Virus record (IMG/VR): IMGVR_UViG_3300034791_000344
Coordinates: 1 to 20,616 of that record
Length of the DNA: 20,616 bases
Source of the DNA: a virus
Reading direction: 5' to 3' (one strand)
The notes under the pieces are model-generated. The model saw only the letters and a program-made list of their open reading frames with translations. It had not been told where the DNA came from and made no database searches. Every line of letters begins with the position of its first letter. Within the stretch, counting starts at the first letter, position 1. A program made the position numbers and the translations under genes. This document shows positions 6,156-20,616 of this stretch, piece by piece.

Positions 6156-6165
6156 TATATAACCT

Positions 6166-6543: not shown

Positions 6544-7219
6544 TTTGAATTTAGTTACAGTTGACTTCTCGCTTAATTCCCCTGGTATATGTGTCTGGCA
6601 GTCTGATACGAATGAATATCACTTTATCTCCTATATTAAAGCTGGTTCAGGAACAAAAGCCGAACAAAAAAGACAAGAAGAAATAAGTCTATTTAAAGAC
6701 GTTACTCTTGTACACCAACCTGACTGGAAATCTTCAGTAGGTGATTACTCCAAAAACGAATTTGCAAAGATTAAAAGATATATCCAAACAGCGGATGATA
6801 TTATTAATTTAATCATAGGCATAACAAATACTAAGAAGGATTATCATATAGCATTCGAGGGAACATCGTATGGTTCTAAGATGGGAACTAATAATATGAT
6901 TGACATGGCAGCAGGAGCTGCAATCCTAAAAGAACAAATGATATCACAACTCGAGGTCAAAAATTTACTGACCGTTGCACCCACAACTATTAAGAAGCAT
7001 GCAGGTAAAGGTAATATGAATAAGTTAGCTCTTTGGGTAGCCTTTTTAAATAATATAGTAGATAGTCCAGAGTTAGCTCAGTCTCCTTTATTTAAGTATT
7101 GTGTAAATGAAATAGGTGATGAGGTTAAGAAGGTTCCAAAACCATTTGACGATCTAGTCGATGCTTGGTTCCTTAATCATTATTTGCTTCAGCAACTTGG
7201 GGAAAATTTGCCGGACTAA
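6518..7219 (+). CDS. RuvC-like Holliday junction resolvase / RNase H-fold nuclease
   Basis: The protein has 233 residues, against about 170 for bacterial RuvC. It shows the acidic constellation of the RuvC superfamily in order: strand 1 'LVTVDFSLNSPGICVW' with Asp16, then 'IAFEGTSYG' with Glu114, then 'PTTIKKHAGKGNMNK' resembling the RuvC pre-catalytic helix, then 'FDDLVDAWFLNHY' with Asp211, Asp212 and Asp215. The expected activity is metal-dependent cleavage of branched DNA before or during packaging. The ATG at 6518 overlaps the upstream gene by 26 bases; a TTG at 6545, just before strand 1, is an alternative start that would remove the overlap. T4 itself uses the unrelated endonuclease VII (gp49) for this job. 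Confidence 0.7.
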   Translation: MLRWVKESNLNLVTVDFSLNSPGICVWQSDTNEYHFISYIKAGSGTKAEQKRQEEISLFKDVTLVHQPDWKSSVGDYSKNEFAKIKRYIQTADDIINLIIGITNTKKDYHIAFEGTSYGSKMGTNNMIDMAAGAAILKEQMISQLEVKNLLTVAPTTIKKHAGKGNMNKLALWVAFLNNIVDSPELAQSPLFKYCVNEIGDEVKKVPKPFDDLVDAWFLNHYLLQQLGENLPD

Positions 7220-7287
7220 CCAGAGATCTTTTTCTGCTTCAAGCCGCGCCAGCACCAGATCTGCTAACCAAGTCTCTGCTTCAAGCC
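7216..7287 (+). repeat. Imperfect direct repeat, ctaacca...ctgcttcaagcc
   Basis: Two units each begin with CTAACCA (7216-7222 and 7264-7270) and end with the identical 13-mer TCTGCTTCAAGCC (7233-7245 and 7275-7287). AGATCT occurs within the first unit and again between the two. A third partial copy begins at TAACCA, 7296-7301. The function is unknown; candidates are a protein-binding region or part of a structured RNA. Confidence 0.6.
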
Positions 7288-7536
7288 CCTTTCTGTAACC
7301 ATCTCAGCCAGACACTTATCTTTCTTTGGCGTTAAAGACATAACTTATATGCGACTATGGAGAAAAGGTTTCAAAAAGGTTCAACAAATCTCAATCTTTT
7401 TTTTTATATAGCTGAGAAAGGGTCCATTTTAGCGACCAATATACTCTTACTATTACGCAAAGTATTAACATAATATCTAGAAACAAAACGAAATAACGAT
7501 ATATAATAAGTATAAAAATCAAACGTTATCAATAAT
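7220..7536. other. Gene-free stretch with C-rich block and AT-rich downstream half
   Basis: This is the longest gene-free stretch in the window. By direct count, bases 7221-7320 hold 35 C and 15 G (50% G+C), strongly C-skewed, while the surrounding genes are AT-rich and purine-rich on the + strand. The block contains an imperfect repeat (separate entry). A nine-T run follows at 7397-7405, then AT-rich sequence with 'TATAAT' at 7502-7507 and 'TATAAAAA' at 7511-7518, some 20-35 bases before the next ATG. I see no tRNA cloverleaf and no convincing ORF. It is a plausible transcription boundary between the virion block and the replication block. Confidence 0.5.
7502..7518 (+). promoter_or_regulatory. 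Possible AT-rich promoter element
   Basis: TATAAT (7502-7507) and TATAAAAA (7511-7518) lie 20-35 bases upstream of the ATG at 7537, directly after the gene-free stretch. TATAAAAA resembles the T4 late promoter core TATAAATA. I see no clear -35 element and no Bacteroidota-type TAnnTTTG, so this is a weak call based on position. Confidence 0.2.
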
Positions 7537-7728
7537 ATGTTAGTAACTGCAGAATACCTTCGTCTTGCTACGATCCTACACAAAATGGTGTTAAACAACC
7601 AGATTACGTCTAATGAACGTGAGGCGTTGTTACACAAATCAGGGCTGATTAAGCTAGAGGATAATAGATGGAAGGAACCTGAAGGAGCTGTATTAACGAT
7701 GAACAATTATTCTAACGAAGAGCAATAG
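7537..7728 (+). CDS. Small hypothetical protein
   Basis: The predicted product has 63 residues and is likely helical at the N-terminus ('AEYLRLATILHKMVLNNQI') with a charged tail ('LIKLEDNRWKEPEG'). It is one base upstream of the next gene and follows the long gene-free stretch, so it is probably the first gene of the replication transcript. No family is recognised. The tight spacing and + strand orientation support it as real. A longer open frame on the opposite strand (7404-7706) is considered its shadow. Confidence 0.5.
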   Translation: MLVTAEYLRLATILHKMVLNNQITSNEREALLHKSGLIKLEDNRWKEPEGAVLTMNNYSNEEQ

Positions 7729-7729
7729 T

Positions 7730-7957
7730 ATGCATACCACTACGTGTAAAGTATTTAATATTATTAATGAGTCTCCAGACGAGCCATTAGAACTTCAATA
7801 CACACCATGTAGTAATGGCATTGCATCGGGTTACACCGTTGTCTCGGGAACAATAACAATGTGTTCTTATGTTGAACCCTATATAACTTCTGGTTCTGGA
7901 TCTGTAAAAAGAATCCATGACGCTGAGTTAAAAGGAATTGGCGAACCACAAAGTTAA
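7730..7957 (+). CDS. Small hypothetical protein
   Basis: The product has 75 residues and starts one base after the preceding stop (TAGTATG). It is rich in Ser, Thr, Gly and Cys and probably beta ('YTVVSGTITMCSYVEPYI'), with three cysteines and no membrane segment or signal peptide. No family is recognised. The context, between a gene-free boundary and the ssDNA-binding protein gene, gives little clue to function. Confidence 0.5.
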   Translation: MHTTTCKVFNIINESPDEPLELQYTPCSNGIASGYTVVSGTITMCSYVEPYITSGSGSVKRIHDAELKGIGEPQS

Positions 7958-8068: not shown

Positions 8069-8989
8069 ATGAGCGACTCATTTGACATTTTTAATTTAGG
8101 CGTGGAAGACGTGGAAACGCACCAGCCTGAAAGAACAAGCGTAAACGAAGTTTACAAACCTACAGCCGACGACGGTAAAGACGGCACTTACAAAGCATTA
8201 ATACGTTTTGTACCAAACCCAGAGAATCCAAGAAACTCTCTGATTCAAAAGTACGTACACTGGTTAACTAACTCTAATGGAGATGGTAAATTAGTAGACT
8301 CTCCTCAAACAATTGGTGAACACTGTCCAATTGCAGATGTATTCTGGAAATTAAGAAAATCAGATTCTGCAGTAGACCGTAAGTCATCAGAGAAATTAAA
8401 GAGACGTCAGCAGTACTATTCTCTAATCAAGATCGTTAAGGACCCACAAAACCCAGAGTTAGAAGGTACTTACAAAGTATTCAAATTTGGATATAAGATT
8501 AAAGAGAAGATTGATTCTGAATTGAAGCCAGACTTTGGCGAGCCAACTCAGGTATTTGACTTATTCGAAGGTAAGAACTTTGAGCTTGTTATTACAAGAC
8601 AAGGGGAATACAATAACTACGATAAGTCTAAGTTCTCTTCAAGTAAATCTGCAGTCTTAATGGGAGAAGCTCCAGCAGAAAGATCTAAAGAGACTATGGC
8701 AAGTATTAAAGAGGAATTGGAAGCAGCTCCTTCACTTGCAACATACGACTATAAAGCATGGGACGAAGATACTCGTTCTTTTGTTAACAACGTTCTTAGA
8801 ATGTATCTAAATCCAGGCGAATCGATTTCAGAGGTTACATCAACACCTGCATCGAAAGCGGCAACAAAACCAGTAGCTCAACCAGTAGCTGCAGCCCCAG
8901 TGGCAGCAGGAACTGCAACAGCAACGGAGCCAGCAAAAGCGAATACTGATGATGATTTAGATTCTTTCTTGAATGACCTCAACCTCTAA
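8069..8989 (+). CDS. 32: gp32-like single-stranded DNA-binding protein
   Basis: The protein has 306 residues; T4 gp32 has 301. The core carries gp32-type features: 'YKALIRFVPNPENPRNSLIQ', then 'GEHCPIADVFWKL', then 'RRQQYYSLIKIVKDPQNPEL', then 'VFDLFEGKNFELVI', consistent with the OB-fold. A Pro/Ala-rich flexible linker (about 265-290) leads to an acidic C-terminal tip 'DDDLDSFLNDLNL', the standard partner-docking tail of phage SSBs. Only one Cys remains in the zinc-region equivalent, so the T4 His-Cys3 zinc site seems absent. The protein would coat ssDNA during replication and recombination and recruit the primase and UvsY-like proteins encoded downstream. The leader octamers suggest translational self-control. 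The 3' end overlaps the primase gene by 17 bases. Confidence 0.88.
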   Translation: MSDSFDIFNLGVEDVETHQPERTSVNEVYKPTADDGKDGTYKALIRFVPNPENPRNSLIQKYVHWLTNSNGDGKLVDSPQTIGEHCPIADVFWKLRKSDSAVDRKSSEKLKRRQQYYSLIKIVKDPQNPELEGTYKVFKFGYKIKEKIDSELKPDFGEPTQVFDLFEGKNFELVITRQGEYNNYDKSKFSSSKSAVLMGEAPAERSKETMASIKEELEAAPSLATYDYKAWDEDTRSFVNNVLRMYLNPGESISEVTSTPASKAATKPVAQPVAAAPVAAGTATATEPAKANTDDDLDSFLNDLNL

Positions 8990-10052
8990 GAACATAACTC
9001 TTACTGAGGAGCTTAAAAGTAGAATAAAGAAGGCACTGAAACAAGTATGTGTTGAAGCACATTCTACTCCAAACAAGCAACTACTTAAAGACATGCCAGG
9101 GCGAATAACCCTGGCGTGTCCTTATTGTGGTGACTCAAGTCAAGATGATACTGCAAAGAGAGGCAACATGTATTGGGACACATTACAGTTCCATTGTTAC
9201 AATTGTTCTGAGCATACAAATCTATATGGACTATTAAAAGACCATCAGATAAAGATGCCTAATTCCGGCGACTCGTTTACTATTATAGACTATATAAAAG
9301 CAAACAAGTCTCAAGTTAGCCAAGAACAAGTATTACAAAACTCATCTCTTGCTAGTGTACAAGAGTTGGCATTAACAGTCGCTGAATTTAAAGAGATATT
9401 CGGTGCAAAAGAAATTACACCAGGAGAGTGGATATGGTTTCAATTAAAAGAGAGGCTATTACACAATAAAGCGAATGAATTTCTTTTCTCCCAAAAAGGG
9501 AATAGACTTTGGATTTTAAACATGGGCATGGAAGGTAAAATTATCGGCGCTCAATCCAGAAGAATGAAAGGTTACGGGTCTAGGTATTTAACTTATGATT
9601 TACCTAAGCTCTATGAAGAATGGAAGAAACCGCTTGACCTACAACCTGATGAACTCACAAAACTTGCAAAGGCAAGTACTCTGTTTGGTATTATGCAAAT
9701 AAACTTCCAGCAACCAGTAACTCTATTCGAGGGACCTATCGATGCTAAGTTTATGCATAACTCTTTAGCCCTAGCTACTGCCGGTAGGACTACAGACGAA
9801 TTTGATGAGATGGCAACAGTACGTTATATGTTTGATAACGATAAGACTGGTAAAAAGAAGATGGCAGAGAAATTAAAGAAAGGTAGACCTGTATTCATGT
9901 GGGCTAAATTTCTAACAGATTTTAAGTTAGATACATATAATATAAAAGATCTTAACGATCTTGTAAAGGTATGTTTCGAACAGAAATCCAATGCATGGAA
10001 AGAAATTGAAAACTATTTTACAACAAGCGAATTAGATCTATGGTATGTATAA
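8973..10052 (+). CDS. 61: DNA primase, T4 gp61-like
   Basis: The protein has 359 residues; T4 gp61 has 342. The N-terminal zinc-binding domain shows Cys49-x2-Cys52 and Cys75-x2-Cys78 ('CPYCGD' and 'HCYNCSEH'), the CHC2-type ribbon used for template recognition. The TOPRIM catalytic core follows, with 'VTLFEGPIDAKF' (Glu253) and 'YMFDNDKTGKKKMAEKL' (Asp288 and Asp290), which coordinate the metal for primer synthesis. It starts inside the 3' end of the ssDNA-binding protein gene, indicating coupled expression. It would synthesise RNA primers for the lagging strand; the matching hexameric helicase is not in this window. Confidence 0.88.
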   Translation: MTSTSKNITLTEELKSRIKKALKQVCVEAHSTPNKQLLKDMPGRITLACPYCGDSSQDDTAKRGNMYWDTLQFHCYNCSEHTNLYGLLKDHQIKMPNSGDSFTIIDYIKANKSQVSQEQVLQNSSLASVQELALTVAEFKEIFGAKEITPGEWIWFQLKERLLHNKANEFLFSQKGNRLWILNMGMEGKIIGAQSRRMKGYGSRYLTYDLPKLYEEWKKPLDLQPDELTKLAKASTLFGIMQINFQQPVTLFEGPIDAKFMHNSLALATAGRTTDEFDEMATVRYMFDNDKTGKKKMAEKLKKGRPVFMWAKFLTDFKLDTYNIKDLNDLVKVCFEQKSNAWKEIENYFTTSELDLWYV

Positions 10053-10057
10053 CTGAT

Positions 10058-10252
10058 ATGGTAGAAGATAATCTAGAAGACTTTCTGAAGGATTCAGAGA
10101 GATTTAAAGGCAACAAGTTAATTGTTGATTTTGAGGTAGAAGAGTTTAATGTACAGAGCAATAAATTTGTTGTGGAAAAACCTAAATTAAAGAAAGGCCA
10201 AAAGGCTGCAAAATTTATTAGGCCAAATCCAAACAAAAAGTCTCTGTTCTAA
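10058..10252 (+). CDS. Small acidic/basic hypothetical protein
   Basis: The product has 64 residues from the ATG at 10058, five bases after the primase stop. An in-frame ATG at 10040 would add six residues and overlap the primase gene; I prefer 10058 because it removes the overlap and starts on a charged helix ('MVEDNLEDFLKDSERF'). The N-terminal half is acidic and the C-terminal half very basic ('KPKLKKGQKAAKFIRP'), suggesting nucleic-acid or replisome contact. No family is recognised. It lies between the primase and UvsY-like genes and is likely part of the same transcript. Confidence 0.55.
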   Translation: MVEDNLEDFLKDSERFKGNKLIVDFEVEEFNVQSNKFVVEKPKLKKGQKAAKFIRPNPNKKSLF

Positions 10253-10262
10253 TATAACTAAT

Positions 10263-10685
10263 ATGAGCAAAGAAAAGATTCAAGCATTAGATCAAAAGTT
10301 ATCCGCACAACGGGCAACATGGTCTGATACAATAAGAGGACTCGCAAGAGGACTTAAAAAAGTAGATGGTATGGAAATGGTAATAGCAGAAACGCTATCA
10401 TCAAGACAGACTTGTGTAGATCAGATTGCATACCTAAACGTAAAAATAAAAGAACAGAAGACAGGAATAAGTTTAAGATATAGGGAAGCCTATATTAGAT
10501 ACTATGAGTATGACTATAAGTTAGGTGAAAAGCAAAAAGAAAAGTTTTTGGAAGGCGACCTAGCAGATGAAAATATGATACTATCTCATCTTGAAAACCA
10601 ATTAGAATTCTTTGCAAGTTCAGTTAAGACCCTAGATAATATGGGCTTTGCAATTAGAAATCGATTGTCTCTGAACGGACTATAA
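10263..10685 (+). CDS. uvsY: UvsY-like recombination mediator
   Basis: The product has 140 residues; T4 UvsY has 137. It is almost wholly helical. The C-terminal part ('LENQLEFFASSVKTLDNMGF' followed by 'AIRN') resembles the conserved end of UvsY, where a hydrophobic helix leads into a 'GFAIK' motif. A Lys/Tyr-rich middle ('RYREAYIRYYEYDYKLGEKQ') fits an ssDNA-binding surface. It is followed three bases later by a UvsW helicase gene, the same neighbourhood as in T4. UvsY displaces gp32 and loads the UvsX recombinase. The identification rests on length, C-terminal motif and synteny; overall similarity is low. Confidence 0.65.
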   Translation: MSKEKIQALDQKLSAQRATWSDTIRGLARGLKKVDGMEMVIAETLSSRQTCVDQIAYLNVKIKEQKTGISLRYREAYIRYYEYDYKLGEKQKEKFLEGDLADENMILSHLENQLEFFASSVKTLDNMGFAIRNRLSLNGL

Positions 10686-10688
10686 TAA

Positions 10689-12197
10689 ATGGAACTAAGT
10701 TTAACTGAAAATAAACAGTTTCTGCGAATTGATGATGCAACTGAGCTAGAACTAGAACAGCTTAATATTACATTCAATCGTAGGATTGATAACTGGCGTT
10801 TTCACCCTCTGGTGAAGAAAGGTCTATGGGATGGCTATATCTCTTATATGAAAGATGATAAGTGGATTCCTTCCGGGCTTTGGAAAGAGGTGATGGATAT
10901 GGCAAAAACATATAAATATGAATTAAAAATGAACGGTGTTACCTCACTGTTCGATGCTAGTGTAAAACAAGACGAATTCACAGCATGGGCCCTCGATTAC
11001 TTTGACGGCCACGATATCACACCACATGATTATCAAATAGAAGCAGCATACAATATCTTAAAGTTTAGAAGATGTTTAAGTGAGTTAGCTACATCTGCAG
11101 GTAAAACACTTATCTCGTATATGGCAGTTGCGTATATGTTAGATAAAGGCAAAGCTGGTAGAATACTATTCATTGTACCAAACGTTTCGTTAGTTGTACA
11201 AGCCTCTGAGGACTTTATAGAGTACAACTGGAAGAATGAAACCAATATTAAAATACAACAGATATATGCTGGCCAAAAGATTAGAGTAGGTAGAAATGTA
11301 GTAATAGGTACTTACCAATCGTTAGTTAAAAAGGATAAAGAGTATTTTGAACAATTCGATGCAGTCGTTATTGATGAAACACATAAGGCTAAATCAACTT
11401 CAATTAAAACAATCTTACAAAAATGTACAGCAGCTAATTATCGTTTTGGTTTATCAGGTACAATTCCTAGAGAAAAGACATTAGATAGGTTGACGTTAAT
11501 GGCACACACTGGTCCTGTAATTACAGAAGTTACTGCGGCACTATTACAAGATGAAGGGCATATTGCCGGATGTAATGTAAAGATAATTAAAATGGATTAT
11601 GCTCCTCAAAGTACTAAGAATGCTTTTCATGAGATGTCCCAAAACAGATATGAGAGTAAAGATGTGTACAGGTTTGAGAGCAATTATGTTATTAATTCAA
11701 CAGGCCGCCTTGCTTTTATTACAAATATTATTTCCAGAGTACGGGGTAACAGTCTTGTTCTCTTCCACAGGATTGAACATGGTAAAAAAATATATGAAAA
11801 GCTGCGCCAAGAGAGTGATAAGCCAATATATTACGTTGATGGAAATACTGATAAAGATATTAGGGAAGAATACAAAAAGAAGATGGAAGTCGGTGCTCAG
11901 GTGGTTATTGTGGCCTCTTATGGTACATTCTCCACCGGTATATCAATTAATAAGATACACAACATATTCTTTACGGAATCGTTTAAATCGGAAGTAATTA
12001 TTAGACAATCCATTGGTAGAGGATTAAGAAAACACCACACTAAATCAGAAGTAAATATCATTGATTTTGTTGATGATCTATCATCTCCTGATTGGGATAA
12101 CTACCTTATTAGACACTCAAAAGCTAGGATAAAAATCTACAAGGAACAGAAGTTCCCGTACGAGATAAAAAATGTCCAATTTGATGGAGATATATAA
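10689..12197 (+). CDS. uvsW: UvsW-like superfamily 2 recombination helicase
   Basis: The protein has 502 residues; T4 UvsW has 503. An N-terminal substrate-recognition domain (about 1-100) is followed by 'HDYQIEAAYNIL' (Q-motif region), Walker A 'TSAGKT' (Lys139), 'LFIVPNVSLVVQ' (Ia), 'VVIDETHKAKS' (motif II, Asp229-Glu-Thr-His), 'FGLSGTIPRE' (III), 'VIVASYGTFSTGISI' (V) and 'IRQSIGRGLRKH' (VI, about residues 438-449). The catalytic set is complete. UvsW unwinds R-loops and branched recombination intermediates and drives the switch from origin-based to recombination-dependent replication. It is adjacent to the UvsY-like gene. Confidence 0.92.
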   Translation: MELSLTENKQFLRIDDATELELEQLNITFNRRIDNWRFHPLVKKGLWDGYISYMKDDKWIPSGLWKEVMDMAKTYKYELKMNGVTSLFDASVKQDEFTAWALDYFDGHDITPHDYQIEAAYNILKFRRCLSELATSAGKTLISYMAVAYMLDKGKAGRILFIVPNVSLVVQASEDFIEYNWKNETNIKIQQIYAGQKIRVGRNVVIGTYQSLVKKDKEYFEQFDAVVIDETHKAKSTSIKTILQKCTAANYRFGLSGTIPREKTLDRLTLMAHTGPVITEVTAALLQDEGHIAGCNVKIIKMDYAPQSTKNAFHEMSQNRYESKDVYRFESNYVINSTGRLAFITNIISRVRGNSLVLFHRIEHGKKIYEKLRQESDKPIYYVDGNTDKDIREEYKKKMEVGAQVVIVASYGTFSTGISINKIHNIFFTESFKSEVIIRQSIGRGLRKHHTKSEVNIIDFVDDLSSPDWDNYLIRHSKARIKIYKEQKFPYEIKNVQFDGDI

Positions 12198-12235
12198 TAC
12201 TATAGTACAAGAAAGTAAAAACAAAATTACACGAC

Positions 12236-13726
12236 ATGAGTCAAAACAAACTACAATCTTTTGAAGACTTTGCTAAAGCGAATACAGTAGCTAAATCAGC
12301 AAGACTTGAAGAAGAACAATCAGCCAAGCGAGACGCATCGGCTAATCAATTTAAATCAATCCTATCTGAATTTGGAGTTACTACAGTAAAAGAACTTACT
12401 GAAGAAGATAGAAATAAATTCTTTACCGCGTTAGGCGCATCTGAAGTTTCTGAATCAATAGCAATTATTGAAGAAGGCACAAGATCTCAAATCGGTAAAA
12501 TCAAAAAGAATGGAAAAATATCAACAGTGTATATGCACTATGATGGTTATCCAGATAATATGTTACCTAAAATTAAAAAGGGTTACGCAGATGGAAAGGC
12601 AGTAGACTTACTACTGAAGAAGGGAGGTGGTTCCGGTCTAGAAGTAAAGGTAGACGATATTAATTTCTACGGCGATAAAACCACTTTAGATGGGGACATT
12701 AAAAATGTTGAGAAGTTTGTAAAAGATGCTGCTAATGATGGCGGAGCTGAATTTATCTACCTATATTCTGAAACAGATAAGAAATGGTATATGGTTGATA
12801 TTTATGACAGTTACGATTTAGAGCCTGCATTTGAATCACTAAACACTATGGTAATCAACGAAAAGTTTGTAGTATCTAAAGGTAATTTAAGAGATGCTAA
12901 GAAAGTTGCTAAATGGTTAGAATCATTCTTTACGAACCATACTGCATTAATGGACGGACCTCTTTTATTAGGATGTTCTAGATACTTATTAGCAGAAGCA
13001 TTAGGTGATGCTAATTTCCACAGATACAGAGACCCTGTAAGTAAAAAGATGGGTGGTAAGATTACAACTATTACAGTAGAGATTGATAAACTAGGAGGAC
13101 AACAAATTCCTGTAAGTAAAAAATCAATTATGAATTTACTAGACGAACATTATTCTGGATTAGCTAACGCTGCAGGATGGTCAGGTATTGGTATTGTTGA
13201 AGGTATGGCTTTATTCTTAGACGGATTTGGTCACTCTAAAATAGCAGAAGCTATTACTGATGAATTTAACTTAATATACGCAAATGAATCAGCAGTTACT
13301 GAAGGTAATGCATTTTTAGCTGCAAGAGCTAAGGCAATCGAAGAAGACGCTGAAGAATTTGAATTTAACGGTAAGAACTTTCCGGTAATTAATAACTCAG
13401 TAGAAGTTGAAGAAGTTGAAGAAGGTAAAGCATCTCAGGCATTGGCTGCAATTGAATTAGCTAAAGAACTTGAAGAAGACGAAGTTGAAGAAGAAGCTAC
13501 TGAAGAAGCTACTGAAGAAGTTACCGAAGAAGAAACTGAAGAAGTTACTGAAGGAGAAGTTACTTCTGATGAAGAATTTAAAGAATATGCATTTGCTGTT
13601 TTAGGTAAAGCATTTGGAGATGATTTTGACGAAGAAAAAGCACAAGAAGTGGTAGACGGTTTATTGTCTAAACATGGTGAAGAGTATGGCGCTGCAATTG
13701 GTGCATTAACATCATCATTAGGATAA
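12236..13726 (+). CDS. Acidic-tailed protein with DGYP domain, probable head-core or packaged protein
   Basis: The protein has 496 residues. The N-terminus ('MSQNKLQSFEDFAKAN') is a weaker version of the tag seen in the following genes, with 'RLEEE' as a possible protease site. 'STVYMHYDGYPDNML' (about 100-114) matches a domain with H-x-D-G-Y-P seen in many phage and bacterial proteins of unknown role. A central alpha/beta region follows, then a strongly acidic low-complexity stretch with four-residue repeats (separate entry), and a helical C-terminal module of about 50 residues ('DEEFKEYAFAVLGKAFGDDF'). The acidic tail recalls prohead core proteins, but I cannot assign a family. The A-rich leader has no Shine-Dalgarno site. 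Confidence 0.6.
   Translation: MSQNKLQSFEDFAKANTVAKSARLEEEQSAKRDASANQFKSILSEFGVTTVKELTEEDRNKFFTALGASEVSESIAIIEEGTRSQIGKIKKNGKISTVYMHYDGYPDNMLPKIKKGYADGKAVDLLLKKGGGSGLEVKVDDINFYGDKTTLDGDIKNVEKFVKDAANDGGAEFIYLYSETDKKWYMVDIYDSYDLEPAFESLNTMVINEKFVVSKGNLRDAKKVAKWLESFFTNHTALMDGPLLLGCSRYLLAEALGDANFHRYRDPVSKKMGGKITTITVEIDKLGGQQIPVSKKSIMNLLDEHYSGLANAAGWSGIGIVEGMALFLDGFGHSKIAEAITDEFNLIYANESAVTEGNAFLAARAKAIEEDAEEFEFNGKNFPVINNSVEVEEVEEGKASQALAAIELAKELEEDEVEEEATEEATEEVTEEETEEVTEGEVTSDEEFKEYAFAVLGKAFGDDFDEEKAQEVVDGLLSKHGEEYGAAIGALTSSLG
13490..13564 (+). repeat. Acidic EE(A/V/E)T tandem repeat
   Basis: Five 12-base units encode EEAT, EEAT, EEVT, EEET and EEVT, then a 15-base unit encodes EGEVT. They sit inside a longer Glu-rich stretch from about 13400. 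At DNA level the units share GAAGAA and ACT/ACC, so the array could vary in number by slippage. The product is probably an extended, highly negative linker. Confidence 0.8.
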
Positions 13727-13745
13727 AAACAACTAAAAGCTTCTT

Positions 13746-15017
13746 ATGAATAAACTATATACATTCCAACAATTTTTAAACGAGAAAGTCCAAGTTAGTA
13801 ATTTGGACAATTTCGTATTTGAAGGTGGGGCAGCAGGCCACATGATGCATCCTTTCGACGATCACTCGTTGACCTTTGGAGATTTTAAACAAATAGTTAG
13901 ATCTGCCTTACAAGGTGGATTAGACTTTGAAGAAACTCCAACTGAAAAGACTGATGGTCAAAACCTATTTGCTACAGTAAAGGATGGTGAGGCGATGTTT
14001 GCTAGAAATAAGGGACAAATGATAAATCCACTCGATCTATCAAGTACTATTAATATGTTTACTGGCCATGCGTCAAAATTAGTTGAAGAAACATTCATCT
14101 TGGCTGCTAAAGATCTAGCAGAGGCACTCCCAGGACTTAAGGACGTATCAATGTTCGCGAACGGATTAAATTTCGTTAATATGGAAATAATTTACTCTAA
14201 AAATCCTAATGTGATCTATTATGACAGAGATGTTATTCAATTCCATGGTATTGTAGAGACTGATGGTGCAGGTAATCAAACAGGAAAGCAAAATGTTGCA
14301 GGCGAATTAGTTAAAGCTCTAAAAGAATTAAAATCAGATGTTCAAAAGACATTTACAATAATTCCCCCTCAAATATTAAAATTAGCTAAAGACATAGAGT
14401 TTGACTCAAGAGTTAACTATTATGAAAAGGCGATAAATAAATTAAGAGATACCTATAACTTATCAGATGGTGATGAGGTTAAGATGTATCACGAGATGTG
14501 GTGGAGAAACCAAATTGAAGAAAACTTTGCGGATCTAGATCCTGCAATAAAAGAAGGTTTACTTTTAAGATGGGCTTACTTAGATAAGAAGACATTGGGA
14601 ATGGTAGCTCTTAAAAAAGCAGTTGATGCTGAACAGGCTAAGAGAGTAAAAGAATTTGATGCATTAAGACAGAAGAAGTATAAAGAAAACATTTTACCAT
14701 TCGAAAATCTATTTTTAGAGTTGGGTGCAGATGTTTTAAAGAACGCTTCTAATTTTGTTGCTGCTAATCCAGATGCTGAAAAAGCAAGATTACATAAACA
14801 AATCAGAACTTCAGCAAACAGCGTTAAAAAGAATGGCGACCTTACTCAAATTGAAAAGGTTGAAAAAGAACTAAAAAGACTAGAGGGAATTGGTGGTATT
14901 GAGTCTATCATCCCAACTGAAGGAGTGGTCTTTAAATTTAAAGGTAAAACTTTTAAACTAACCGGTACTTTTGCTGCTATAAACCAGCTAATGGGTATCA
15001 TAAAATACGGAAGATAA
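13746..15017 (+). CDS. Tagged covalent nucleotidyltransferase (RNA/DNA ligase fold)
   Basis: The protein has 423 residues. It begins 'MNKLYTFQQFLNE', a capsid-targeting-like tag with a predicted protease site after Leu-Asn-Glu13. Next come 'GHMMHPFDDHSLTFGDF' and the ligase motif I 'EKTDGQNLF' with nucleophile Lys68. A motif III-like strand reads 'FVNMEII'. Motif IV is 'PTEGVVFKFKG' (Glu392-Gly393), followed by a motif V-like 'KTFKLTG' (Lys404). All catalytic elements are present, so it should form a covalent lysyl-AMP (or GMP) intermediate. The substrate, RNA or DNA ends, cannot be read from sequence. The insert between motifs III and IV is about 200 residues and helical, unusually long. Its stop overlaps the start of a second ligase-fold gene. 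Confidence 0.75.
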   Translation: MNKLYTFQQFLNEKVQVSNLDNFVFEGGAAGHMMHPFDDHSLTFGDFKQIVRSALQGGLDFEETPTEKTDGQNLFATVKDGEAMFARNKGQMINPLDLSSTINMFTGHASKLVEETFILAAKDLAEALPGLKDVSMFANGLNFVNMEIIYSKNPNVIYYDRDVIQFHGIVETDGAGNQTGKQNVAGELVKALKELKSDVQKTFTIIPPQILKLAKDIEFDSRVNYYEKAINKLRDTYNLSDGDEVKMYHEMWWRNQIEENFADLDPAIKEGLLLRWAYLDKKTLGMVALKKAVDAEQAKRVKEFDALRQKKYKENILPFENLFLELGADVLKNASNFVAANPDAEKARLHKQIRTSANSVKKNGDLTQIEKVEKELKRLEGIGGIESIIPTEGVVFKFKGKTFKLTGTFAAINQLMGIIKYGR

Positions 15018-16876
15018 TGGCACTACAAAATCTAAAGACATATTTCGAGGGGGCAAACATTTCAGACATCGACGCATTGTTAGATAACAAATGTATTGTA
15101 ACTGAAAAAATTAGCGGCTCTTCTTTTCATGTTAAAAGAGAAGGTAGTGGATTTGTATATTACAAGTCTGGTTCTAAAGATAAAATGAATGTCATAGACC
15201 GTACTATCGTAAGATATTATGAAAACGCAATTAGGCATTTTAAATCAGTATCTGTAGATGCAATGAACGATATGCCATTTGATTGGAAATTCGGATTTGA
15301 ATACGTTGGCGATAATAAAACAATAGACGTCGAATATGATGTGCTACCTAAATCTAATTTAATTCTAACACATATACAAGTAATGCAACCTTCTAACCCT
15401 AATAAAGTTAGAAAGGTAATTAGAGATACTAAAATACTTAACAAGTGGGCAGGATTATTAGAAGTTACAAAACCACCTGTATTATTTGAAGGTCAATTAC
15501 ACTCAGGACAAAAAGACGATATTAAAAGAATACTTGGAATGTCTCCAAATGAATTTGAACAATCGTTTGAAGATAAAGACAGCCCTTCATTTACAAGAAC
15601 TATCTTTGGTATATTTAATGAGAATATGAAGCAATCAGCTTTAATGAATGATTTATCTAAGGATGTTTCAGGATTTATAGTTAATTTCCATGATGGTAAA
15701 TCTTTACAAACATATAAACTAGAGAAGTTTAATAAGAAAGATGCACCAGCAAGAAAACCTTCTGACATGTATCAAATTACACTTTTAGATATTGTAGAGC
15801 ATTTGGCACAATTTAACTTTCAAGATATTAAATTAATAGGAGAAGAAACTGATAAGAGATATTTAGAATTAATGTCTGAGGTTTTTAATAACTATGTTGA
15901 AAAGAATGCTACTAAATACATTGGTGCTAAGTTTGATTCTGCAGATTTTTCAGAATCACCTATGTTTGAACTAAACCATAAGTTTTTACAGAACGAAAGA
16001 ACATTAACATTAGTACAAGATAAAATACTTTCTGAATTATTTAAAATAACATTAGGTAGTTTTAGAAAGAAAAGAAATAAAGAGACAGATCTTATTAATG
16101 CAGATCTAATGAACAATATTAATTCTATTATTGAAAAGATTGATTCATTAATAATGGCTGAGACTAGTGAGAGTGATGTACAAAGTTTTAATCAATATTT
16201 ACTTAATAAGAAGATTAGCACTCAAGTAAGTCCAATTACTGAAGCATTAAAAGTAGATTACCCAGAACATGGTAAGAAATTAGTTAATATGTTTGTTGGT
16301 AGATTCCAACCATTTACACTAGGCCATGCTAAAGTAGTCGAAACTATTCACAAACAGAACGGCCATCCAGTAGTAATATTATTAGTTAAGGCTAAGAATA
16401 AGAAAAAGGAAGATGCATTTAAAAGACCTTATGATGAGTCAACTCAAGTAGCAATGATTAACTCTTTAAAAGGTAGATTACCAATTGAAGAAGTTTTTGT
16501 AATTCCAACCGGTGGTATTGACACTATGTTCAATGCAATGAGACCAAAATACGAACCAGTATTATGGGGAACAGGAAGTGATAGAATGAAAACTTACGGT
16601 TATCAAGTAAACAAACAAGAATATAGAGATGACTTAGATGTTAGAGATGACTTCGGTTTATTTGAAATCCCTAGAACTGGTAAGAACATTTCAGCAACAC
16701 AGGTAAGAAACGCCATGTTAGATGGTGATGAGAAGCTGTTTAAGAAGCTAACTCCTAAGCCGTTACATAATATGTATGCAGAGTTAAAGACTAAACTGGA
16801 AAACTCTATGGGCGTAATGGCCGAATCTACTGAGGTAGAGTTCTTAACCTTTGACAATTTTATTAAGAATATATAA
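15017..16876 (+). CDS. RNA ligase-like domain fused to NMN-adenylyltransferase-like domain
   Basis: The protein has 619 residues. Residues 1-250 look like an RNA ligase core: motif I 'VTEKISGSSFHVKR' (Lys31), 'WKFGFEYVGD' as the motif III region, 'DVSGFIVNF' in the motif IV position (with Ser replacing the usual Glu), and 'YKLEKF' as motif V. A helical segment (about 250-380) follows. Residues 422-565 are an HxGH-type nucleotidyltransferase: 'VNMFVGRFQPFTLGHAKVVE' at 424-443 and 'ISATQVR' at 558-564, as in NadM/NMNAT enzymes that make NAD from NMN and ATP. Tag-like segments occur at the domain joint (about 380-409, ending I-T-E) and at the extreme C-terminus ('FLTFDNFIKNI'). The start overlaps the upstream stop by one base. 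Combined roles in RNA repair and NAD supply are plausible but inferred. Confidence 0.75.
   Translation: MALQNLKTYFEGANISDIDALLDNKCIVTEKISGSSFHVKREGSGFVYYKSGSKDKMNVIDRTIVRYYENAIRHFKSVSVDAMNDMPFDWKFGFEYVGDNKTIDVEYDVLPKSNLILTHIQVMQPSNPNKVRKVIRDTKILNKWAGLLEVTKPPVLFEGQLHSGQKDDIKRILGMSPNEFEQSFEDKDSPSFTRTIFGIFNENMKQSALMNDLSKDVSGFIVNFHDGKSLQTYKLEKFNKKDAPARKPSDMYQITLLDIVEHLAQFNFQDIKLIGEETDKRYLELMSEVFNNYVEKNATKYIGAKFDSADFSESPMFELNHKFLQNERTLTLVQDKILSELFKITLGSFRKKRNKETDLINADLMNNINSIIEKIDSLIMAETSESDVQSFNQYLLNKKISTQVSPITEALKVDYPEHGKKLVNMFVGRFQPFTLGHAKVVETIHKQNGHPVVILLVKAKNKKKEDAFKRPYDESTQVAMINSLKGRLPIEEVFVIPTGGIDTMFNAMRPKYEPVLWGTGSDRMKTYGYQVNKQEYRDDLDVRDDFGLFEIPRTGKNISATQVRNAMLDGDEKLFKKLTPKPLHNMYAELKTKLENSMGVMAESTEVEFLTFDNFIKNI
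16154..16243 (+). other. Tag-like segment at the ligase/NMNAT domain joint
   Basis: From Met380 the frame reads 'MAETSESDVQSFNQYLLNKK' and continues to 'SPITEAL', ending at Glu409. The F-N-Q-Y-L-L pattern followed by hydrophobic-T-E and Ala-Leu resembles the tag at 18111, which ends I-L-N-E-A-L. Cleavage after Glu409 would release the adenylyltransferase domain. The leader here is less A-rich than at the other internal tags, so this is the weakest of the three. Confidence 0.35.
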
Positions 16877-16893
16877 ACAAAATAAATTAACAC

Positions 16894-17289
16894 ATGAAAT
16901 CAATAAAAACATTTGAAGCATTTACTCATAACATAGTTAATGAAAAAATGACTTTTGGAAGTTATTACTTTAGTACATACGCGTTTGATGGTTTTGATTT
17001 ACCAGCTAAAGGTGAAACTAGTTTCGCTTTAGTGCTACACAATACTGTAGAAGTAAATGGAGAATCAATGTATTTAAGATCTAAAAACGACCATAATGTT
17101 GGAGCCGGATTTAGACCTAAGGTTGTAGCTGTTGCTACAGATCAAGCATCTATAGAAGAAGCATATAAAACTCATGTAAAAACTGGAGGTGAAGGTGCGA
17201 ACCTTTCAATCTCTTATGGATCATTTACTGTTAAAGGAGCAAATTGCTCATATACAGAAGTTGATGGTATAATAAAAAAGCTTAAATAA
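16894..17289 (+). CDS. Tagged small protein of unknown function
   Basis: The product has 131 residues and opens with 'MKSIKTFEAFTHNIVNE', with a likely prohead-protease site after Val-Asn-Glu17. The remainder would be about 114 residues, beta-rich, with 'GSYYFSTYAFDGFDLPAKGE', 'GFRPKVVAVATDQASIEEAY' and a C-terminal helix ending in basic residues. No family is recognised. The leader is A-rich (AAACAAAATAAATTAACAC) without a Shine-Dalgarno site. I infer a packaged internal protein because of the tag and neighbours. Confidence 0.6.
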   Translation: MKSIKTFEAFTHNIVNEKMTFGSYYFSTYAFDGFDLPAKGETSFALVLHNTVEVNGESMYLRSKNDHNVGAGFRPKVVAVATDQASIEEAYKTHVKTGGEGANLSISYGSFTVKGANCSYTEVDGIIKKLK

Positions 17290-17291
17290 TT

Positions 17292-19157
17292 ATGAATAAA
17301 TTTGAAGACTTTTTAGAAGAAGGCAAAAAGATACAAATTAAAAGAAAGTATACTGAAAACCATCCAGCACAAACTGTTGGTAAAACAGCTAATGTTAGAA
17401 ATGAGATTTTAAAAGCTGTAAAAGACGGTGTGATAACTGAAGAAGAGTTTACTAATATAATTTCTAAATTATCTACAAGCCCTAAAAGATGGAGAACAAC
17501 CAATTCAAAATATTTCTTTGTTTCTGAAGAGGGTATTAAACTTTCTAAATGGGGTCTTAGGATTTTAAGTGAAGTTGATGATACTCCTAAATTAAAGGCA
17601 TTTGCTATCCATGAGGCAACAGTTGTTATGGATGCAATGGATCCAAAATCTAAAGTATTAAAGAAACTTCTTAAGAAGCATAAGGTTACAATGGAAATCA
17701 TCGATATGAAAGGCCCAAGTGGTTGGCCTGAAGTAGAACTTACTGGTTCGAAAGAAGATCTTACAAAGGTATTAGCATCAGAAGATGGATGGGATGACGC
17801 GGACTTAGCAGAATATATCGAAGAGTCTAAAGAAGGTAAAGTAACAGAAGGTTATGAAGTTATCTTTAGTGATGGTGTATCTCAAATCCAAAAATTCAGA
17901 GATGAAAAAGGAGCGATTGCTTTTATGAAGAAAGAAATTGCCTCTAATAAAAAATTAAAAGAAATTGCTATATACAACGCAGGATCTGGTTTTCATTCAA
18001 CAACACAAACTGAGTTTGTAGTTAAGTTTTGGGGAAATGGATCTTACTTAGATAACGTTTCTAAAAAAGATAATAAATTAGCATCTAAAAAATTAGAAGA
18101 AAAAAACAACATGGAAAATAATATAAACTTATTTGAATCTTTTGAAGCATTTACCGCTTCTAACGGGATATTAAATGAAGCACTAGGTAGTCAATTACTA
18201 GCTAGCGTTTTAATGAGTAACAAAGAAGGTAAATACGGTAAAGAAAATTTAAAGCAATTAGCTGGTGGTTTTTACCAATTAGCTAAAGTTGCATTAGATA
18301 AAGTAGGTGATGAGGATATGATCGTAAGTAATGATCCAAGTAAAGTATTTAAAGAAAATGGTGGATCAAAGCACATATTATTCTTTATATCTGATAACGA
18401 AAAAGATAATCCATATTGTCCTTATGATGCTGGTTACGGTGCATTAAAAACTGTACCAGGTGGAGGTACTCTAATAGCAGCAATGTCTGGTGATAGAGAA
18501 TTTTATACTAACGACTGGTCTAGATACTCGAAAGATAGAGCATTTAAAAAAGACGGTAAAAAAGGTAAAGAAGACCAAGTTGGTGTATCACATAAATACA
18601 GAGGCTGGTCAGGGACTGGACTTAATAATGGTAAAAGAATCGCAGAAGTTTCTGATAGAGTTGTTATTATTAACCTAGACTTAATTAGACAAAAGTATTC
18701 TACTCAACAATTAAGAGATGCAAGAGCCGCTGCTAAGGCAGGTGCAACTGCATTTAAATCTGATAAAGATTTTAAGAAATCTAACAACGACAGATACCAC
18801 CAAATTTTAGCTACTAAGGCTGCAAAAATGCCACTAGATAAAATGGTAGCAGATGCAATCGATATGTTAACTGATCAAATTAAAGCAGGTTTAGCTAAGG
18901 GCGAAAAGACTAAATATGATGAAATCAAAATTGGTCAAAGTGCAAATGGTAGAGAAGTTAAAATGAGAGACGCTTCTAATCACATGTCAAATATCCTAGA
19001 TGATTATTCTAGATATTGTAATTACATTGCACAAGAAGAAGAATCTGATAAAAGATATGGTTCATCTGAATCTTGGTATAAAAGAGAGATTAAGAATTAC
19101 GCTTTATCACTTAAAGAAAGAATAGCTAAAATCGAAGGATTTGATTACGCTTGGTAA
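17292..19157 (+). CDS. Two-part tagged protein, apparent fusion of two cargo proteins
   Basis: The protein has 621 residues. Part one (1-273) starts 'MNKFEDFLEE', a short tag with an L-E-E site, then includes 'GPSGWPEVELTGSKEDL' (about 141-157) and 'EGYEVIFSDGVSQIQKF' (about 189-205), which look like small alpha/beta modules. Part two begins at Met274 with a complete second tag ('FESFEAFTASNGILNE') and continues with a domain of about 325 residues containing 'GVSHKYRGWSGTGLNNGKRI', 'DRVVIINLDLIRQKY' and a helical C-terminus. I do not recognise either enzyme class. The reading frame is continuous across the joint, with an A-rich leader-like sequence before Met274. Either one fused precursor or two nested products is possible. 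Confidence 0.65.
   Translation: MNKFEDFLEEGKKIQIKRKYTENHPAQTVGKTANVRNEILKAVKDGVITEEEFTNIISKLSTSPKRWRTTNSKYFFVSEEGIKLSKWGLRILSEVDDTPKLKAFAIHEATVVMDAMDPKSKVLKKLLKKHKVTMEIIDMKGPSGWPEVELTGSKEDLTKVLASEDGWDDADLAEYIEESKEGKVTEGYEVIFSDGVSQIQKFRDEKGAIAFMKKEIASNKKLKEIAIYNAGSGFHSTTQTEFVVKFWGNGSYLDNVSKKDNKLASKKLEEKNNMENNINLFESFEAFTASNGILNEALGSQLLASVLMSNKEGKYGKENLKQLAGGFYQLAKVALDKVGDEDMIVSNDPSKVFKENGGSKHILFFISDNEKDNPYCPYDAGYGALKTVPGGGTLIAAMSGDREFYTNDWSRYSKDRAFKKDGKKGKEDQVGVSHKYRGWSGTGLNNGKRIAEVSDRVVIINLDLIRQKYSTQQLRDARAAAKAGATAFKSDKDFKKSNNDRYHQILATKAAKMPLDKMVADAIDMLTDQIKAGLAKGEKTKYDEIKIGQSANGREVKMRDASNHMSNILDDYSRYCNYIAQEEESDKRYGSSESWYKREIKNYALSLKERIAKIEGFDYAW
18111..18179 (+). other. Internal capsid-targeting-like tag and possible internal start
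   Basis: An in-frame ATG at 18111 (Met274 of the 17292 gene) begins a full tag ending in Ile-Leu-Asn-Glu at 18179. The 30 preceding bases are A-rich (ending GAAGAAAAAAACAAC), like the leaders of the stand-alone tagged genes at 16894, 19179 and 19489. It could be an internal translation start, a protease site between fused domains, or both. Confidence 0.55.
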
Positions 19158-19178
19158 TTAATAAAAATAAAACAAATT

Positions 19179-19469
19179 ATGAAAATATTTACATTATTTG
19201 AACAGTTTATTAACGAAAAAGTTAATATCAAAAAAGAAATTAAGAAAATAGCAGACTACTATGATGACACAGAAACATCTGGTACAGAAATATACGTAAA
19301 AGATTATGTAGAAGATGAAGACGTAAGTCCACATGGTTATATGTTCTGGTGGAATGCAGAAGATCAAGAATGCGGTATTGAATATCAAAAAACAGCAGCT
19401 GGTGATGTATCAGATGATCCATGTAAGACAGCAGATGATTTCATAGCATACGTTAATAGTAGAACATAA
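19179..19469 (+). CDS. Tagged small acidic protein of unknown function
   Basis: The product has 96 residues. The tag 'MKIFTLFEQFINE' predicts cleavage after Ile-Asn-Glu13, leaving about 83 residues. After a Lys-rich helix ('KVNIKKEIKKIADYYDD') the protein is acidic and aromatic ('YVKDYVEDEDVSPHGYMFWW'), ending in a short helix. No family is recognised. The A-rich leader (TAAAAATAAAACAAATT) matches the other tagged genes. It could be an injected inhibitor; small acidic phage proteins often are, but this is only a guess. Confidence 0.6.
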   Translation: MKIFTLFEQFINEKVNIKKEIKKIADYYDDTETSGTEIYVKDYVEDEDVSPHGYMFWWNAEDQECGIEYQKTAAGDVSDDPCKTADDFIAYVNSRT

Positions 19470-19488
19470 ATAATAAAATACAAACACT

Positions 19489-19917
19489 ATGAAACACTTA
19501 CAATTATTTGAAGAATTTATTAACGAAGGCACATTAAAGGCTGGAAGAGATGAAGAATTAGGAAACGCTATTCTTGCATATTTTTATGCAGTTGATGGAA
19601 CTCCAGAAGGTGACGCTGTAAGAGCATTGCCAGGAAATCCTATTAGATATGACGGTAGTGTAGGTGAACAAGATGGTTTATCTGGATTTGGAAAGGCTGT
19701 TGTAAAAGACATATCTAAAGCAAGAAGAGTTCCTTCTGATTTTATGATGGGTAATGTTGTAACAATAGCAGCAAACAATGGTAACTCATATTACTTTGAT
19801 GGTTCTGATTTCGTAGAAGGTGATAAAACTATTATTAGTGGAATTCACAAAATGAAATATAGAGAATTTATCGACAAGCTTATTAAGTTAAAGATAATCG
19901 AAACTCCAAAATATTAA
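19489..19917 (+). CDS. Tagged small protein of unknown function
   Basis: The product has 142 residues. The tag 'MKHLQLFEEFINE' predicts cleavage after Ile-Asn-Glu13. The mature part has a helix ('EELGNAILAYFYAV'), a Gly/Asp-rich middle ('IRYDGSVGEQDGLSGFGKAV') and a C-terminal helix rich in Lys and Ile. No catalytic motif or membrane segment is seen. The leader is A-rich (ATAAATAATAAAATACAAAC). The stop is followed one base later by the start of the next gene. Confidence 0.6.
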   Translation: MKHLQLFEEFINEGTLKAGRDEELGNAILAYFYAVDGTPEGDAVRALPGNPIRYDGSVGEQDGLSGFGKAVVKDISKARRVPSDFMMGNVVTIAANNGNSYYFDGSDFVEGDKTIISGIHKMKYREFIDKLIKLKIIETPKY

Positions 19918-19918
19918 T

Positions 19919-20616
19919 ATGTCAGAAGATAAATCATTAGAAGAAAATTCAGCAGGTGCAGTATCTTTAAATCCTGGTATGACTATCGGGGGTATTGGAG
20001 ATCCAGTATTACCAACAGCAACTACGGTAGGTTCTGGAGATGTTCTTTCAGTAGCAGATATAGATGATGACGAAGAAGAAGCCAAGAAAGATAAAACAAA
20101 AAAGAATTTAGAAATGGAATCATTGCACTTAACATTTGACAGCTTTGTAAACGAAACATTACTTATCGAAGGTAAATTTGATAATCATGTTGATTTAGTT
20201 AAATCTTTACATTTTGAAATAGATCCTGAGGTTGCTAAGGAAATGAAAATTGAACTCGGCAAAAGACAAGGTGAATATTCAGAAAGAAAACAAATCGAAG
20301 GTGGAGATTATTCATTAAGAAGATTTAGAAAAGAGATTAAGTATGATGAGACTGGTAAAGATCTTGGTGTATTTAGGCCTGGTAGTTATATGGCTGCCAC
20401 TTCTAAACTAGGCGATGGTCCACATAAGAAAGCAGTTAAGAAAATAAAATGGACTCAAAAGAAATATGACCAATGGTTAGAAGATGTTGCATCAAATGAC
20501 GGTTGGAAGAATGCTTCTGATATGGCTCAAAATGCTAAGAACGAACCAGGACTTATTGATTGGGTTAAAAAGAATAATAGAGGTGAAGATGCAATGCAAA
20601 GAATCCAATGGGATAT
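19919..20616 (+). CDS. Tagged protein with N-terminal extension, 3'-truncated
   Basis: The frame starts at the ATG at 19919, one base after the previous stop, and stays open to the right edge (232 complete codons visible). Residues 1-50 are Gly/Pro/Ser-rich and probably unstructured ('NPGMTIGGIGDPVLPTATTV'), followed by an acidic-to-basic linker ('DIDDDEEEAKKDKTKK'). At Met66 a complete tag begins ('MESLHLTFDSFVNE'), and a charged alpha/beta domain follows ('KFDNHVDLVKSLHFEIDPEV', 'RRFRKEIKYDETGKDLG'). No family is recognised. The unstructured first part may be a separate small module or a fused small gene, as in the 17292 gene. Confidence 0.6.
   Translation, partial: MSEDKSLEENSAGAVSLNPGMTIGGIGDPVLPTATTVGSGDVLSVADIDDDEEEAKKDKTKKNLEMESLHLTFDSFVNETLLIEGKFDNHVDLVKSLHFEIDPEVAKEMKIELGKRQGEYSERKQIEGGDYSLRRFRKEIKYDETGKDLGVFRPGSYMAATSKLGDGPHKKAVKKIKWTQKKYDQWLEDVASNDGWKNASDMAQNAKNEPGLIDWVKKNNRGEDAMQRIQWD
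20114..20155 (+). other. Internal capsid-targeting-like tag and possible internal start
   Basis: An in-frame ATG at 20114 (Met66 of the 19919 gene) starts 'MESLHLTFDSFVNE', ending in Val-Asn-Glu. It is preceded by an A-rich run (AAAACAAAAAAGAATTTAGAA) like the leaders of stand-alone tagged genes. This is the second clear tag in the middle of a longer frame. Confidence 0.55.

Follow-up and report, generated by a model that had tools for sequence, protein, structure and literature searches.

The 20,616-nucleotide stretch of marine phage DNA analyzed here (IMG/VR record IMGVR_UViG_3300034791_000344, hereafter "the window") encodes a 619-amino-acid protein in which, as modeling confirmed, a fold like that of T4 RNA ligase 2 (Rnl2) is joined to a nucleotidyltransferase fold of the HIGH superfamily. 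What is new is that the C terminus of this fusion bears a conserved F..F(I/L) tail, whose sequence resembles the capsid-targeting sequence (CTS) of phage T4. By analogy with T4 and with cyanophages, we consider it likely that the fusion is packaged into the phage head and injected, in which case it would probably enter with the viral DNA and function as soon as infection begins. As the best explanation, held at nearly even confidence, we hypothesize that it is a cargo enzyme delivered with the DNA as a module for nucleic acid end repair or for supply of nicotinamide adenine dinucleotide (NAD).

Two folds in one protein

A first-pass annotation had placed a KISG nucleotidyltransferase core and a GRFQPFTLGH...ISATQVR domain in the same protein, and this stands: the open reading frame (ORF) is intact (Table 1), and IMG/VR scans recovered 105 distinct fused phage proteins, forming 55 clusters at 85% identity. 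An AlphaFold model built from 59 related sequences (mean predicted local distance difference test score [pLDDT], 85) was matched by Foldseek to T4 Rnl2 over its N-terminal half (2hvr; E = 1.5e-7, prob 1.00), and the best fold-search matches of the C-terminal half were CoaD/phosphopantetheine adenylyltransferase (PPAT) nucleotidyltransferases. The C-terminal half also matched PF01467 (amino acids 425 to 565; E = 2.4e-9, above the Pfam cutoff), and its closest solved structure by sequence profile was the archaeal nicotinamide mononucleotide (NMN) adenylyltransferase (NMNAT) 1f9a (E = 6e-5). Pfam and NCBIfam gave no convincing match for the N-terminal half, including none to PF09414 (RNA_ligase). 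Aurora kinase, the top match of this half in a PDB sequence search (E = 0.006), was set aside as a chance hit, its alignment being patchy and contradicted by the fold search.

In Rnl2, residues of motifs I, IIIa, and IV are important for ligase function. The motif I lysine is present in 54 of the 55 fused clusters, and Asp stands in its place in 45 of 49 clusters of stand-alone homologues. The Gly of KxxG (Gly34) is Ala in 42/55 fused clusters, although the protein in the window retains EKISG. At positions assigned by sequence pattern, the motif IV Glu is replaced by Asp in 46 of the 55 clusters and by Ser218 in this protein, and the motif IIIa Asp is His (His119) in all 55. By these alignments, the N-terminal half is eroded at several usual ligase catalytic positions while retaining the lysine. 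The HIGH half has an intact active-site signature: in an alignment of 12 sequences (A1), including a protein of a 462-kb phage, GRFQPFTLGH is invariant, as are I558, S559, A560, V563, and R564 of ISATQVR. Both domains named by the annotation are thus recovered as predicted folds, and fold and lysine agree with a nucleotidyltransferase core, but the active ligase that it implied fits poorly with the Gly-to-Ala and motif IV changes. The N-terminal half shares with T4 Rnl2 (PF09414) the predicted fold and an E-K-I-x-G-type motif I and differs from it in these residues, in the missing PF09414 match, in its fusion to a HIGH domain, and in having stand-alone relatives without the lysine.

The 462-kb phage (LR756500.1) carries the same fusion at 33.5% identity across 96%, and together with the 105 proteins in 55 clusters this indicates that the arrangement is no chance event. 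Stand-alone homologues of the N-terminal half occur in phages of 634 to 735 kb, and the stretches examined from these phages contained neither a separate HIGH gene nor a gene of the partner type described below. A flavobacterial host is suggested by a related contig (L570) that belongs to a Flavobacteriaceae metagenome-assembled genome. A literature search found no description of this ligase-like/HIGH fusion. On one contig (L123), partner and fusion occur in two tandem copies (4704-7845 and 8783-11942), and two fusions (L244:5001-7961 and L245:5001-7826) are about 300 residues longer and lack the targeting-like tail.

Capsid-targeting-like peptides

An F..F motif, not noted in the first-pass annotation, lies within the last 14 residues in 52 of the 55 fused clusters, against 3.6% expected by composition, and F..F[LIVMK] was found there in only 6 of 967 other long ORFs (0.6%), one of them a fusion fragment. 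Both Phe residues (F612 and F615) are invariant and a Thr is present in 51 of the 52 tailed clusters; the linker ahead of the tail is variable (entropy, ~2.6 to 3.2 bits). In the model, pLDDT falls below 50 at residues 603 to 610, and the tail forms a short helix at residues 612 to 617. The protein encoded immediately upstream, here called the partner, carries [FYLW]..[FYW][LIVMKTA].E in its first 25 residues in 85% of 61 clusters (1% expected). As the clusters share descent, the figures for tail and partner peptide measure conservation rather than independent origins. Within the window, the pattern [FY]..F[LIVM].[ENKDQ] occurs at the N termini of the ORFs starting at 13746, 17292, 19179, and 19489 and at the C terminus of the fusion, and at neither end of any ORF before 12236.

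For T4 IPIII, ten N-terminal residues are enough to direct packaging; within the targeting sequence, positions 4 and 7 are important in targeting, and positions 8 and 10 are required in processing (PMC9026906). T4 Alt undergoes clipping at each end, its C terminus included (PMC5694885). F612 and F615 match the aromatic positions 4 and 7 of the T4 peptide. Like the CTSs of IPI to IPIII, the fusion tail has aromatics three apart, a hydrophobic residue next, and a putative protease site nearby, and the doubly clipped Alt offers a likeness in C-terminal processing (PMC9026906, PMC5694885). Unlike the T4 CTS, it is C-terminal and has no Glu at position 10 (Asn in 33 of 52 clusters, Glu in none), and packaging is read here from sequence. 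The presence of Glu in the N-terminal peptide of the partner but not in the C-terminal tail is expected if an N-terminal copy needs end clipping and a C-terminal copy does not. A loose pattern, xE(S/A/N/Q...), occurs within the 25 residues preceding the tail in 51/52 tailed clusters, and a gene for a gp21-type (S77) prohead protease is present in 12 of 13 large relatives of the fusion clade, the window itself being a 20.6-kb fragment. That this protease clips the tail seems to us possible, if not quite probable. In this clade (L638-L649), a long, acidic region resembling a scaffold follows the S77 domain within one ORF.

Mass spectrometry (MS) of purified virions of the cyanophages S-CREM2, S-SZBM1, S-SCSM1, and S-CBWM1 has identified NMNAT-like/cytidylyltransferase proteins (PMC10665884, PMC9146016, PMC9602691). 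The HIGH-domain profile of the window matches the MS-detected virion proteins S-SZBM1_140 (E = 2e-9; PMC9146016) and S-SCSM1_91 (E = 6e-16; PMC9602691), whose N termini, MRFRQFIIEA and MKSFLQFLKEA, respectively, both fit the T4 pattern; a DUF6267 gene adjoins the former. The T4-GC 190 "cytitidyltransferase" of T4-like cyanophages, which has been detected in virion proteomes, shares with the fusion a HIGH domain homologous by profile comparison (hhalign prob 96.6, E = 7e-10), a capsid-targeting-like peptide, and often an adjoining ligase-like gene (DUF6267), and differs in having no fused ligase and in carrying its peptide at the N terminus with an LxE↓A site (the arrow marks the cleavage position). 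Similar peptides end the prohead proteases of S-SCSM1 (FNDFLNSL) and S-SZBM1 (FHEFLQSL) and an S-SCSM1 DUF3008 protein annotated as a virion protein (TFKEFLEYIE).

A recurrent pairing of ligase-like and HIGH proteins

The partner gene lies upstream of the fusion in 102 of 102 loci with room for one. Its product was modeled with a pLDDT of 87.5, and its top fold-search matches were ligases alone, though weak (Foldseek; T4 Rnl1, E = 6e-3). No Pfam match was found, and profile comparison with DUF6267 gave no homology (hhalign probability, 0.1%). Among 49 sequences, E67, K68, D70, and G71 are invariant, T69, Q72, and N73 almost so, and a conserved Glu, EG, and KLTG are also near-invariant.

A ligase-like protein and a HIGH enzyme occur together in at least five different gene arrangements across T4-like phages, a recurrence that speaks for a single shared pathway and against two counter-defences unrelated to each other. 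The window represents the first, with the ligase-like N-terminal half and the HIGH domain in one ORF and the partner gene upstream. The second has the reverse order, with HIGH and a partner-type ligase in one 639-amino-acid protein of Microcystis phage Mel-JY01, and includes marine polyproteins that hold both domains in one ORF at 46 of the 47 loci showing both; a sampled polyprotein of 1,292 amino acids additionally contains a zeta/AAA_33 P-loop kinase. The third is a fusion of a KYDG ligase-like domain (weak PF09414 match, E = 0.029) to a degenerate HIGH domain in Campylobacter phage CP21. In Stenotrophomonas phage Moby and Xanthomonas phage X1, ligase-like and HIGH proteins are encoded by overlapping adjacent genes, and in many cyanophages DUF6267 and HIGH genes are neighbors, both being present in 73 of the 80 nearest loci and the other 7 having no room; these 80 loci are close relatives, and the 73 are not independent observations.

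Several of these loci have further features. The marine polyproteins (L499-L569; e.g., L516:1423-5301) are 1,050 to 1,430 amino acids long and combine P-loop kinase, HIGH, and partner-type ligase, and most of their complete N termini resemble MNKLTEWL. In the Campylobacter protein CP21_156 (L400:3975-5486), erosion runs the other way than in the fusion of the window: KYDG is retained by the ligase half, whereas GKFRILTKAH and ISATAVIE mark a degenerate HIGH half. Moby and X1 (L401:2375-3295, L082:1128-2138) encode a pol-beta-like nucleotidyltransferase (GS...D.D) two genes upstream of the pair. DUF6267 (PF19782; e.g., L406:2103-2999) has an invariant K-x-D-G, EG, and K, where x is W, or Y in 6/69 sequences, and in its motif positions it looks like a covalent nucleotidyltransferase/ligase. 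A DUF6267 search in four relatives gave no match, but neither did its control, which makes the result uninformative; a literature search found no mention of the family. Polynucleotide-kinase-like AAA_33 domains were detected in 5 of 13 relatives, never adjoining the fusion.

A possible injected enzyme module

We picture the cargo enzyme as follows. The fusion and its partner (13746-15017) would be made together from their overlapping genes, inside a block whose sequences include further targeting-like peptides. The F..FI tail of the fusion and the N-terminal F..FL.E peptide of the partner would anchor the two proteins within the prohead core, where the S77 protease may process the tail by cutting at an xE↓S site. 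After injection of both, the HIGH domain would move a nucleotide from a nucleoside triphosphate, most likely adenosine monophosphate (AMP) from adenosine triphosphate (ATP), to a phosphate-bearing acceptor, while the Rnl2-fold half would mainly bind nucleic acid or the partner, and the partner would be the active covalent nucleotidyltransferase. Together they could mend nucleic acid ends or nicks early in infection, through either NAD/NMN regeneration or direct end adenylylation (the latter an alternative already raised in the first-pass annotation), and we put forward this joint end-mending or NAD-linked function tentatively and with some doubt. A loop in which an NAD-dependent ligase is paired with an NMNAT that recycles NMN was considered and not adopted by itself, with no NAD-ligase Ia domain found and no NAD-dependent ligases among the partner fold matches listed; it is kept solely as one version of the proposal. 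In a bolder version, which we regard as decidedly improbable, T4-like phages would package and inject an end-mending kit with the ligase steps split among proteins: HIGH would adenylylate 5'-phosphate ends directly from ATP (yielding AppN ends, the usual intermediate of ligases), the eroded Rnl2-fold half would hold or seal pre-adenylylated ends, and the partner ligase (plus the kinase domain in marine polyproteins) would finish the repair, the C-terminal tail being a CTS relocated to the opposite protein end.

Several points weigh against the cargo-enzyme proposal. On the packaging side, the tail is absent from three clusters (L243, L244, and L245), the candidate cleavage motif is looser than the (L/I)xE of T4, our searches turned up no T4-like phage for which a targeting sequence at the C terminus has been demonstrated, and the fusion-clade S77 proteins with a complete C terminus (L643, L645, and L648) have no F..FL end. 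The virion MS support comes from homologous cyanophage HIGH proteins and none from the fusion clade, and the cyanophage proteomics authors themselves noted possible cesium chloride carryover. On the enzymatic side, the acceptors of the HIGH domain are candidates only, the fold match of the partner is weak, and the DUF6267, X1, and Moby proteins were assigned as ligase-like by motifs alone. In some cyanophages (e.g., ACG-2014f KJ019059), about 100 kb separates the DUF6267 and HIGH genes, and profile comparison detected no mutual homology among the fusion N-terminal half, the partner, and DUF6267; in view of that negative comparison, we do not claim common descent of the three ligase-like families beyond fold or motifs.

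If the proposal is true, a widespread and unexplained pair (ligase-like plus "cytidylyltransferase," including DUF6267) would be one system of virion-carried, injected enzymes, which would account for the repeated finding of NMNAT-like proteins in cyanophage virion proteomes. Further, the capsid-targeting code would extend to C termini, and a simple sequence rule would predict injected phage proteins.

Alternative roles

An unlikely alternative is that the HIGH domain is an NMNAT, delivered or expressed, that only keeps NAD up, the Rnl2-fold half serving as a dead tether or nucleic acid anchor. The invariant HIGH motifs and eroded ligase half agree with it, and the authors of two cyanophage studies read their virion NMNAT-like proteins in this way (PMC10665884, PMC9602691). 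However, the HIGH domain falls far below every NMNAT and CoaD equivalog cutoff (34.6 bits against TIGR01527, E = 1e-8, cutoff 181.2), its closest structural matches are CoaD/PPAT rather than NMNAT, and the constant ligase-like partner would be left unexplained. It resembles archaeal NMNAT/NadM and CoaD in GRFQPFTLGH, ISATQVR, and fold and, besides missing these cutoffs, differs from them in having no Nudix or kinase domain. Of 15 large fusion-carrying contigs, which may be incomplete, as the window is, only 4 were found to encode NadV (PF04095), and in three of these four (G005, G009, and G015) the fusion was the only PF01467 domain detected. The fusion shares a HIGH-superfamily adenylyltransferase with phage NAD-rebuilding pathways (NadV plus NadM/NadR) and differs from them in the mostly absent NadV and in having no NadM/NadR architecture. 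Because NadV is so inconsistent, whereas in surveyed phages NadM is always accompanied by NadV (PMC9503650), an NAD role of the fusion is possible and not constant, and the low NadV frequency and equivalog scores make NMN no more than a candidate substrate.

Quite unlikely, in our view, is an ordinary cytoplasmic enzyme of late-infection repair or metabolism whose tail is, for example, an oligomerization peptide and no packaging signal. The restriction of virion proteomics to other clades, the modeled tail helix, and the three tailless clusters are in keeping with it, but the same motif with T4-like spacing stands at the N termini of the partner, several neighbors, and MS-detected virion homologues, and the C-terminal background is low.

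The first-pass annotation had proposed a two-front anti-defence enzyme, with the ligase half repairing host-cleaved tRNAs and the NMNAT half independently restoring NAD that host defences have depleted. In its favor are the structural resemblance to T4 Rnl2 and to nucleotidyltransferases, the archaeal-NMNAT-like sequence (TIGR01527, 1f9a), and the three NadV contigs in which the fusion is the sole PF01467 domain detected. Two independent active counter-defence enzymes are, however, not supported, given the eroded ligase half, the sparse NadV, the recurrent pairing with other ligase-like proteins that implies a shared pathway, and the retention of KTDG, EG, and K in the partner. Separate canonical RNA_ligase (PF09414) genes were found in only 3 of 15 large contigs, none adjoining the fusion; PADLOC gave no family match and no tRNA genes were found within the window, both being weak evidence. 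The annotation's idea that both domains answer known defences suits the C-terminal half, with its invariant motifs, better than the N-terminal half. The two-front reading is possible but lacks direct support, and it has ceased to be the simplest account; we judge it improbable. The least probable alternative is a structural or scaffolding protein of the head core that recruited enzyme folds with catalysis irrelevant, to which the persistence of lysine-less ligase-like cousins in 634- to 735-kb phages and the degenerate-looking Campylobacter HIGH domain would conform, but not the invariant HIGH motifs of the aligned fused family or the near-invariant partner motifs.

Features of the window

The fusion and its partner lie in a block of genes with targeting-like peptides (Table 1).

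Table 1. Positions of the fusion, its partner, and neighboring genes in the window
Feature	Nucleotide position	Strand	Amino acids	Remarks
Fusion protein	15017..16876	+	619	Single unbroken ORF from ATG to stop
Rnl2-fold ligase-like half of fusion			~1-240	Fold model; helical extension to ~400
HIGH-superfamily (NMNAT/PPAT-like) nucleotidyltransferase half of fusion			~420-595	
Ligase motif I region EKISG	15104..15118	+	30-34	Lysine is residue 31
Motif IV position, Ser-Gly	15668..15673	+	218-219	Ligases usually Glu-Gly; assigned by sequence pattern
HIGH-type motif GRFQPFTLGH	16298..16327	+	428-437	
Second nucleotidyltransferase motif ISATQVR	16688..16708	+	558-564	
Candidate prohead protease site MAE↓S	16817..16828	+	601-604	In disordered linker
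Capsid-targeting-like tail TFDNFIKNI	16847..16873	+	611-619	C-terminal
Partner ligase-like protein	13746..15017	+	423	Stop overlaps fusion start (TAATG)
Partner motif I KTDGQN	13947..13964	+	68-73	
Partner capsid-targeting-like TFQQFLNE	13761..13784	+	6-13	N-terminal
Protein of phrog_1987, unknown function	12236..13726	+	496	Weak N-terminal targeting-like SFEDFAKAN; same block
Protein starting MNKFEDFLEEG	17292..19157	+	621	Targeting-like; same block
Protein starting MKIFTLFEQFINEK	19179..19469	+	96	Targeting-like; same block
Protein starting MKHLQLFEEFINEG	19489..19917	+	142	Targeting-like; same block

Sigma-70-like promoters and terminators in 12000-20616 were not more common than in shuffled sequence. 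The string TATAAATA of the T4 late promoter occurs once in the window, at 10911, and not directly ahead of the 12236-19917 block. The ORF at 19919-20614 is probably misstarted, as an ATG at 20114 yields MESLHLTFDSFVNE, a targeting-like N terminus; in the Flavobacteriaceae-linked contig L570, the counterpart of its upstream part is a separate 90-amino-acid ORF ending in LLSFDKFLNIMKG. At the other end of the window, positions 1-2667 encode an open-ended long protein with a collagen-like start (GAKGDQGEIGPQG) followed by repeated Cys-rich stretches of the GCTDP..NYDP type, which is probably a tail-fibre-like protein.

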